The notes beneath the pieces were generated by a model. The model saw nothing but the letters and a program-made list of their open reading frames with translations, ran no database searches and was not told the origin of the DNA. Shown one piece after another: positions 14,150 through 64,000 of a DNA stretch of 64,000 nucleotides (the stretch's first letter is position 1; every line of letters begins with the position of its first letter). Source of the DNA: Desulfomonile tiedjei DSM 6799. GTDB taxonomy: Bacteria; Desulfobacterota; Desulfomonilia; Desulfomonilales; Desulfomonilaceae. The position numbers and the translations under genes are program-made. The stretch lies in assembly GCF_000266945.1 (NCBI RefSeq), contig NC_018025.1, positions 1,426,001 to 1,490,000 of the forward strand, given 5' to 3'.

Positions 14150-14157
14150 ACAATATG

Positions 14158-14341
14158 TAGAGCGACTGCCAGAAATTCTGACGCTTACTTCGCACTTGAA
14201 TACAAGCTATTGGTGGGGACCAACGTCTCTGCCGTTCAATTCTGGTGATATCATTGATCATATTGAACATGTGCCGGCACGGAGGCCGACACCCACCAAT
14301 ATTCTTGATCTTCAATCGGACATTAATTTCTGCAATTTTTA
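14158..14341 (+). repeat. Family B MITE-like repeat, copy 1 (184 bp)
   Basis: The element is bounded by TA on both sides. Its left end GAGCGACTGCCAGAAATTCT and right end AATTTCTGCAATT are inverted versions of each other. The centre holds GATATCATTGATCATATTGA and the paired arms TATTGGTGGGG / CCCACCAATA. The same architecture and length recur at 21047, 43489 and 50871. Confidence 0.85.
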
Positions 14342-21046: not shown

Positions 21047-21230
21047 TACAATCAGTGCCAAAAACTTCTGCCGTTTATCCTGCGTGTGAATTACAGGATA
21101 TTGGTGGGGATCGGTGTCCCTGCCGATCCATTTTATCGATATCATTGATCATATTGAAGACGTGCCGGCACGGAGACACGGCACCTCCCAATACCCTGTC
21201 CTCAATCGGACATTAGTTTCGGCAATTCTA
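21047..21230 (+). repeat. Family B MITE-like repeat, copy 2
   Basis: TA-bounded, 184 bp. Left end CAATCAGTGCCAAAAACTTC, right end TTTCGGCAATTC. The centre reads ATCGATATCATTGATCATAT and is flanked by the arms ATTGGTGGGGATCGG and GGCACCTCCCAAT. It lies in the 739-bp gap upstream of dapL. The rest of that gap shows no supported gene. Confidence 0.85.
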
Positions 21231-24074: not shown

Positions 24075-24185
24075 TATGAGAATTGCCAAAATCAATTTCC
24101 GATTGAGGATTAGGAATATTGGTGGGTACCGGCCTCCGTGCCGGCACGTCTTTAATATGATCAATGATATCAATATAATGACCCG
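24075..24185 (-). repeat. Family B repeat, truncated copy 3
   Basis: The inverted right half of the element: TATGAGAATTGCCAAAAT, then AATATTGGTGGGTACCGGCC, GCCGGCACGTC and the core ATGATCAATGATATCAATAT. Similarity fades after about 24185. The remaining gap to 24446 includes GTAGGCACTAGGCCTAC, a short palindrome of another common repeat type. Confidence 0.7.
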
Positions 24186-24446
24186 ACAGAGAGAAAGTGT
24201 CTTAAAATCAAAACTTTATCCTGGATCGTGGCACGAATTCCTTATCGTCCTGCTGGCCTGACTATAGGGACGGGCCTAGTTGTCCGCCCAAATAAGGGTA
24301 GGCACTAGGCCTACCCCTACAAAGATGGCGAATCGTGGCACGATTTGTATGTTTTGGATAATTTTGAGACGACCTCGGTTCGCTTCGCTCACCGGCATCC
24401 TACACGCCGATTGTGCCGTTTGAACCGTTTCTCAGTAGATTGAAAA

Positions 24447-30239: not shown

Positions 30240-30450
30240 CACGATCGTTCATGGTTCTGTGAATTTCCCGAGTTATAGCAGATGATGTGATTTCTGACCT
30301 TTTGAACACATTCTGCCTTAAATGAACGGTAGAGGCCGGCGTCCCTGCCGGCCCGAACTGGTTGATTTGTATTTGAAAAATGTGCCGACACGGAGGCACG
30401 GCACCTACCAATTGACGAGAAGTGCTTTTCGCAACTGGACACTGTTTTAT
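30240..30450 (+). repeat. Degenerate family B-like repeat, copy 4
   Basis: Arms GTAGAGGCCGGCGTCCCTGC / GCCGGCCCG and ATGTGCCGACACGGAGGCAC / CTACCAATTG match family B module order, but the ends and the centre are eroded. The gap 30098-30501 otherwise shows nothing coding. Confidence 0.45.
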
Positions 30451-30501
30451 ACACTTGCTCTAACTGAGTTTGACTGCACTTTCTCACGTGTCGGCGATAT
30501 A

Positions 30502-42468: not shown

Positions 42469-43698
42469 TCAGAATGTTAGATTCACGGCAATCCCGCCGG
42501 CCAGATTATATCTTCTGTAAACAACATCTCGATCTTCAAGTATTCCGAAAATCAAATTCGGATGGGTTGTGCTGTAACCGCTCTCGAGACGTCCTCCTCC
42601 GCTTGCGGCCATCCAGCCGCCTTTACCCCAGAGACTCAGATGCGTGCTTGCTGCTATGGATATGCGGTACTCGGCGCCGGCCTCGAAAAAATAAGCCATA
42701 CTGTTCATGGTAATGATGTTTTGCGCCAGGAAGTCGTACGAGGGCGCGATGTCAGCTCTGAATCGGGTGCCTACCTTTACCTTGGCGGATCCGAGGATAT
42801 TTCCGATTAGCCTCAGTTTCAGAGCCTCCCCCGCGTATTCCATACCCAAATACGGCAATACGAGATCGCTCATAACGTCACTGGCAAGGAGACTCACATT
42901 CTTGTAAGATCCCACATCCACGCGACTCAGCACACCGGGTTCTTTGACGGTCATGTCAAAATGGTCCCACTTCAATCCTGCCACAAGGCCGATAGGGGGG
43001 CGGAAATAGTAGACAAAGCCTCCTTCCACTTCCAGCCAATCCAGGGGGTACTTTCTTCGCAAACGAGTCTCGGGTTCGCTGTCCACATATCCCGCGAAAG
43101 AAGTGGCGAGATTCTGAACAAGATTCCCCGAACCGCTCATGAACAGTTTGAGAGAGGGCGTAATGCGTGCCTCAATTCCGGCTTCAATAATCCAGAGGTT
43201 CACGTCAGGAAGGCCGAGATTTACGGAATCCCCTTTGTAACTCTCCGTTCCCGGAACAGAGACCTCGAATGGGACGGGAACGCTTACGTGCATTCCCATT
43301 CTTCGATATCCCGATTTGAGCGACGGGATGTACTTGATTTCGCTCAAATCTATTCTAGGCAAGTCAGCTATCCTGGGAATCGCAAGAATGTTCGATGAGA
43401 TAAACCCGCGGGCACTGGTGGGAACCGAATCGGAAGTGCCGAGTTCATGCGCCTGCAGCGGTGATGGATGGAACAGAAATGCAACTATTAGAGGAATTGC
43501 CAAAATTAAGGCCGATTTAGGATTGGCAGTATTGGTAGGTGCCGGCTTCCTTGCCGGAACATCGTCAATATAATCAATGATATCGATAGAATGGACCGGC
43601 AGGGAAGCCGGTCTCCACTGGTATCTTGTATACGAGCGGAGGACAAGCGTCAGAATTCTTAGCAATCGCTCTACAAGAAGTCTACAGGTGCGGTTCAT
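42469..43698 (-). CDS. Outer-membrane barrel protein carrying an in-frame family B insertion in its signal peptide
   Basis: The ATG at 43698 follows AGGAAACG and starts MNRTCRLLV. A 183-bp family B element (43489-43671) then adds 61 codons without a stop. After it the frame resumes IVAFLFHPSPLQAHE, the rest of a perfect signal peptide (cut after LQA). Removing the insert restores MNRTCRLLV joined to IVAFLFHPSPLQA. The mature protein of about 320 residues contains many amphipathic strands and ends in NLTF with the barrel-type C-terminal Phe. A TTG at 43503 could still give a shorter signal without basic residues. Export is therefore uncertain. No family name. Confidence 0.7.
   Translation of the reverse strand: MNRTCRLLVERLLRILTLVLRSYTRYQWRPASLPVHSIDIIDYIDDVPARKPAPTNTANPKSALILAIPLIVAFLFHPSPLQAHELGTSDSVPTSARGFISSNILAIPRIADLPRIDLSEIKYIPSLKSGYRRMGMHVSVPVPFEVSVPGTESYKGDSVNLGLPDVNLWIIEAGIEARITPSLKLFMSGSGNLVQNLATSFAGYVDSEPETRLRRKYPLDWLEVEGGFVYYFRPPIGLVAGLKWDHFDMTVKEPGVLSRVDVGSYKNVSLLASDVMSDLVLPYLGMEYAGEALKLRLIGNILGSAKVKVGTRFRADIAPSYDFLAQNIITMNSMAYFFEAGAEYRISIAASTHLSLWGKGGWMAASGGGRLESGYSTTHPNLIFGILEDRDVVYRRYNLAGGIAVNLTF
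43489..43673 (-). repeat. Family B repeat inserted in frame, TA-flanked (185 bp)
   Basis: TAGAGGAATTGCCAAAATTA at one end and TAGCAATCGCTCTA at the other are inverted ends with a TA at each outer edge. The centre has ATGATATCGATAG and the arms GGTGCCGGCTTCCTTGCCGG. The element length from TA to TA equals that of the copy at 50871. It sits inside the coding sequence of the barrel gene and keeps the frame open. Confidence 0.88.
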
Positions 43699-43785
43699 CG
43701 TTTCCTGCGGCCTTTGCAAGGGGTCTTTACCATCAGTGCGTTGAACAATTTCAGAATACTAGTGTTATTGATACTATTGCGCCAT

Positions 43786-43870
43786 TAAATTCATGAAATC
43801 GGGAGGTCCGGCAGGGACGCGGACCCCACCATGAGACAGTAGCGGCCGGCCTTCGTGCCGGCCAAATTCG
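43786..43870. repeat. Degenerate GC-rich arms related to family B
   Basis: GGTCCGGCAGGGACGCGGACC and GGCCGGCCTTCGTGCCGGCC are two perfect or near-perfect hairpins separated by AGTAGC. They match the arm modules of family B, but no ends are present. Confidence 0.4.
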
Positions 43871-50834: not shown

Positions 50835-50870
50835 CACCGTTTCGAGAGGCGTCTGACATCTATTCGCTTT

Positions 50871-51055
50871 TATAATCAGTGCCAAGAATTCTGTCGTTTA
50901 TCCCGCGTTTGAATGACAGGATATTGGTAGGGACCGGCGTTCCTGCCGGTCCATTCTATCGATATCATTGATCATATTGAAGATGTGCCGGCACGGAGGC
51001 CGGCACCTACCAACACACCCATCCTCAATCGGACATTAATTTTGGCAATGACTTA
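50871..51055 (+). repeat. Family B MITE-like repeat, copy 6 (185 bp)
   Basis: TA-bounded. Left end TAATCAGTGCCAAGAATTCT, right end AATTTTGGCAATGACT. Arms TATTGGTAGGGACCGGCG and GGCCGGCACCTACCAA flank ATCGATATCATTGATCATAT. A further degenerate GC-rich hairpin block lies at 51065-51130. The gap 51056-51300 holds nothing else that I can support. Confidence 0.88.
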
Positions 51056-63945: not shown

Positions 63946-64000
63946 TACAGAGCGATTGCCAAAAATTCTGACGTTTATCCCACGCTCCGACACACGATAG
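63946..64000 (+). repeat. Family B repeat, copy 7, cut by the window edge
   Basis: TACAGAGCGATTGCCAAAAA followed by TTCTGACGTTTATCCCACGC matches the left end of full copies. The element begins two bases after the dnaB stop codon and continues beyond the window. Confidence 0.75.

Follow-up and report, generated by a model that had tools for sequence, protein, structure and literature searches.

We analyzed a 64,000-bp window of the Desulfomonile tiedjei DSM 6799 genome (2 contigs, 6,527,027 bp in total), comprising positions 1,426,001–1,490,000 of the 6,500,104-bp contig. The locus of interest is a minus-strand gene for an outer-membrane beta-barrel protein, in which a copy of a MITE family is read in frame within the signal peptide (Table 1).

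Table 1. Features of the barrel locus and of the repeat family (plain numbers are window positions; L-numbers denote contigs or stretches elsewhere)
Feature	Position	Strand	Description	Basis
Outer-membrane beta-barrel gene	42469..43698	minus	409 aa with insert, C-terminal Phe	homologue alignment, model, fold matches
Likely ribosome-binding site, AGGA	43703..43706	minus	4 bases before ATG	sequence
IS630-type MITE copy	43489..43673	minus	185 bp TA to TA, 61 codons in frame	family alignment and genome matches
Terminal inverted repeat, 5' end in gene direction, with flanking TA	43657..43673	minus	TAGAGCGATTGCTAAGA	alignment to family consensus
Terminal repeat, 3' end in gene direction	43489..43509	minus	TTA ATT TTG GCA ATT CCT CTA, read as LILAIPL	alignment to family consensus
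Predicted leader	43450..43698	minus	~83 residues, ending LQA before HE	translation and hydropathy (prediction)
Other window copies of the MITE family	14156-14341, 21048-21229, 24075-24192, 30273-30463, 50868-51053, 63946-64000		1 partial, 1 cut by window edge	
IS110-family element inside MITE copies	L099:17812-19269, L117:8913-10371, L136:11208-12668			
Second palindromic repeat in MITE copies	L086:7640-8042, L100:9596-10000, L119:17888-18290, L135:3422-3817			

The host gene and the insertion

The barrel protein matched no family in Pfam or NCBIfam, and a sequence search of the PDB returned noise only. No relatives of the barrel were found in the genome_contigs search, and neither gene nor protein was found in plasmids. 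The predicted model was a barrel in which most strands had pLDDT >90 (residues 26–61 and 77–115 were below 50). The best Foldseek matches were OmpT and Pla, followed by FadL, with E-values down to 3.6e-11 and TM-scores of only ~0.2–0.57; these matches support membership of the barrel fold class but give no grounds for assigning a protease or transport role. A C-terminal Phe occurred in nearly all barrel homologues, and the protein combines the predicted fold with the C-terminal aromatic residue of an outer-membrane beta-barrel.

The MITE copy starts TAGAGCGATTGC and finishes GGCAATTCCTCTA in gene direction. Read in the frame of the barrel gene, MNRTCRLLV is followed by the 61 insert codons and then by IVAFLFHPSPLQAHE, with zero stops; the net insertion is 183 bp. 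The first-pass annotation had given the element these same boundaries and length from TA to TA, a preserved frame and no stops, all of which proved exact by sequence and translation. The residues between the insert and the predicted cleavage site are IVAFLFHPSPLQA, followed by HE. On the DNA level, the insertion TA is flanked by CTTCTTG on one side and ATAGTTGC on the other.

Deleting the insert so that a single TA remained gave the junction MNRTCRLLVIVAFLFHPSPLQAHE and a protein of 348 aa instead of 409. The pre-insertion reading is then MNRTCRLLVIVAFLFHPSPLQA, again followed by HE; that is, the flanks join to a regular 22-residue signal peptide, as had been claimed. It had also been proposed that the element split the signal peptide at the border of its n- and h-regions, but the cut falls instead within the hydrophobic core, between LLV and IVAFLF.

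The 14 homologous proteins from the family (20–52% identical; two of them, L017 and L030, are same-genome paralogues, not orthologues) all lacked the insert and had short N-termini. The nearest homologue, from the same genus, starts MKTLTGSIFALLLAVSSCFCQTTACAH. In our reading of the pre-insertion state, these insert-free homologues stand in for the exact empty site of a close strain.

The repeat family and its probable IS630 origin

The insert was a true repeat, with at least 40 genomic matches at 80–88% identity. A 39-base core occurred 134 times in the genome at ≤3 mismatches, versus 0 occurrences of the reversed control. In an alignment of 30 copies the unit was palindromic and its ends approximated TAKAGCRATTGCCAAAA, and the RNA fold of the element was strong (−72.8 kcal/mol, z −7.7). 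Of 50 well-conserved full-length copies, 44 retained the TA at the 5' end, 34 retained it at the 3' end and 31 had kept both; the in-gene copy is one with TA at either end. The window itself held seven non-overlapping matches.

Several further observations concern the palindromes. At 43769-43836, immediately upstream of the barrel gene, a short palindrome whose arms are GCCGGCC matches the MITE profile weakly and in part. The central palindrome of the in-gene copy (43542-43611) pairs better than the family consensus; both of its arms carry changes (G to T, C to A), which look as if they had been corrected in step. Elsewhere, three MITE copies each carry, at the same central site, a near-identical IS110-family element encoding a DEDD transposase of 316 aa, suggesting that the MITE palindrome is a target of this element; IS110-type elements reportedly target REP sequences. 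At about the same central site, other MITE copies carry a second palindromic repeat with CTGTCTC/GAGACAG-like ends.

The DDE_3 (IS630) transposase had no match anywhere in the D. tiedjei genome, but it was found in most family relatives. In one relative (G012), a frame of 349 aa that carries DDE_3 and HTH domains lies between inverted ends at approximately L077:898 and 2019; the left of these ends, TATAGCGTTTGCCAAAAATAATGTCCGATTGA, matches the MITE end, TATAGCAATTGCCAAAATTAATGTCCGATTGA, at 29 of 32 positions (read by eye). A second relative (G011) contains an element of ~155 bp with similar ends. A third (G004) carries many diverged repeats, 70–94% like parts of the MITE, on many contigs (e.g., L062, L071), and the MITE family is therefore older than the D. 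tiedjei genome.

Because its ends match those of the intact IS630-type element in G012, the most fitting reading of the repeat is that of an IS630-derived MITE that has lost its driver from the D. tiedjei genome. Like IS630/Tc1-mariner-type MITEs, it is a short, multi-copy palindrome with terminal inverted repeats, TA at its ends, and repeats shared with a relative's IS630 transposase element. These features bear out the MITE-like identity with TA ends proposed earlier. The D. tiedjei family differs in that its genome retains no IS630 transposase; an autonomous partner in the same genome is usual, not required, for a MITE.

Rarity of in-gene copies

Our survey covered the window together with 60 stretches of 20 kb each, ~1.26 Mb in all, of which 75% was called coding. 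Of the 126 sampled matches, half-elements included, the barrel-gene copy alone was truly in a gene. Thus, the family is rarely tolerated inside genes despite the high proportion of coding sequence. A genome-wide census covering one reading frame, the insert's own, scored at least 150 matches; the open frame around the barrel copy spanned 429 aa, compared with at most 217 aa for any other match listed. Fourteen other long-frame matches were read out, none of which had coding signal on both sides.

Two apparent in-gene copies were rejected. One (L103:8135-8319) lies in the upstream extension of another frame, which we take to be acyl-CoA dehydrogenase-like, and the other (L098:1896-2076) overlaps the over-extended start of an Hsp20 gene. 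Within its coverage, the census also ruled out a general in-gene habit like that of the Rickettsia elements, although copies sitting within genes beyond the sampled stretches and in a frame other than the insert's own may have escaped it. Among the 50 well-conserved full-length copies, 17 had a frame-keeping length and 4 were open in this frame, and only the barrel copy was both. When all six frames were considered, 4 of the 50 combined a frame-keeping length with an open passage. Because so few copies are readable through, a gene that received a copy of this family would in most cases be destroyed.

The apparently rebuilt core and the probable fate of the gene

The 3' end of the MITE encodes LILAIAI in the family consensus when read in this frame, and LILAIPL in the in-gene copy. 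The new core, preceded by a lysine, consists of a MITE half, ALILAIPL, and the original half, IVAFLF (KSALILAIPLIVAFLFHPSPLQA). We rejected KSALILAIPL as a native signal core, the stretch being alignable to the MITE family end. Hydropathy was higher in the new core than in the pre-insertion core over 11 residues (3.08 versus 2.70) and over 15 residues (2.77 versus 1.65), whereas the 9-residue maximum was slightly lower (3.26 versus 3.52). To judge from these translations, the terminal repeat appears to rebuild the hydrophobic core that the insertion cut, which is the new point of this analysis. That is, because the terminal repeat encodes LILAI in this frame, the element would restore what its own insertion broke. 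Such a rebuilt core offers a plausible reason for the insertion having been tolerated, and with the core replaced by the MITE end, export of the barrel was probably retained.

We propose the following sequence of events. A non-autonomous IS630-type MITE inserted at a TA within the signal peptide's hydrophobic core, and the net 183 bp, free of stops, preserved the reading frame; the sequence shows both steps. Translation most likely still begins at the original ATG, served by AGGA, yielding a leader that would contain, in order, the old n-region, the MITE-encoded residues, the lysine, the hybrid core, and the old cleavage site between LQA and HE. The barrel would probably still be exported, and the insert may be roughly neutral baggage that is removed together with the signal peptide. 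We consider this account as a whole, with frame and core restored and export probably retained, to be probable.

The position of the start codon bears on this account, because translation might instead begin inside or after the insert, which would then be 5' untranslated DNA. A TTG codon (in ATT TTG GCA) does sit just before the core. However, the inserted frame contains no ATG, no clear ribosome-binding site precedes the TTG, the short form would be without a basic n-region, and AGGA is well spaced from the upstream ATG. We judge an internal start very unlikely.

The age of the insertion is relevant to whether the gene is still in use. The private branch of the in-gene copy was 0.19 changes per site, part of which may predate the insertion, compared with a family median of 0.072. 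The probability that an unselected barrel would stay stop-free was 0.12 at 0.07 changes per site and 0.006 at 0.19. The stop-free barrel and the old copy together favour the view that the gene was kept after the insertion. For the insert itself, remaining open after such divergence is not surprising (chance of 0.46 to 0.61 if initially open), and constraint on the inserted residues was not significant (dN/dS ~0.45–0.56, P ~0.18).

These results also bear on the possibility that the insertion crippled the gene, leaving a frame that is open by chance and a barrel that is either a young pseudogene or barely made. The lack of significant constraint on the insert is consistent with this, a frame-keeping open passage does arise by chance in some frame (in the 4 of 50 copies described above), and translation might be reduced by the strong hairpin near the start of the message. 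Nevertheless, 326 barrel codons persist without stop or frameshift despite the old insertion, the coding score of the gene is good, and the new signal peptide is plausible. We therefore regard a crippled gene as unlikely.

The same hairpin could be taken to mean that the long leader was co-opted, with the inserted segment or its RNA tuning translation or export somewhat as in autotransporter leaders. Autotransporters have long two-part signals in which an ordinary signal peptide forms the C-terminal half (PMC2805444), and in the barrel gene the frame was kept despite divergence. Against co-option, we detected no constraint on the inserted residues and found no second genic case; its probability seems to us slight. 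The likeness lies in a long N-terminal extension before a signal-peptide-like part on a protein destined for the outer membrane. Here, however, the extension can be aligned with the MITE family and originates from a mobile element, and the protein lacks a passenger domain, being a plain barrel.

Relation to known in-frame repeats

In-frame MITE insertions are known, above all the RPEs in Rickettsia (PMC10969869, PMC2229807). The RPEs lie repeatedly in genes, and nearly half of the first set was genic (Ogata et al. 2000, reviewed in PMC10969869, PMC2229807). The first-pass annotation had likened the barrel insertion to these elements. As a single event the comparison holds, in that a palindromic mobile repeat is read in frame in a gene that, here on sequence grounds, is apparently still functional. 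It does not extend to the family, which is almost wholly intergenic in D. tiedjei and supplied one in-gene case rather than recurrent in-frame insertions. A close precedent is the YPAL/RU-2 repeat in Yersinia YPO1552, which contributes to the signal of a putative novel protein (Delihas 2007, PMC2759123). In contrast, the D. tiedjei MITE splits the existing signal peptide of a barrel and appears to rebuild its core, and the two elements are unrelated as far as tested. The D. tiedjei case is of the same kind as these published insertions; its distinguishing points are the split and apparently rebuilt core, the readable pre-insertion signal, and the insert-free homologues.

A broader reading is that the terminal repeat of the MITE acts as a portable hydrophobic core that makes insertions into signal peptides self-repairing, and that the leader may also control translation or export; we hold this to be rather improbable. 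If the portable-core reading were true, self-repairing insertions into signal peptides would survive selection. The barrel gene is a well-defined example, amenable to dissection, of a mobile element joining the leader of an exported protein: its pre-insertion signal can be read directly, insert-free homologues exist, and the idea of self-repair is open to a simple export reporter.
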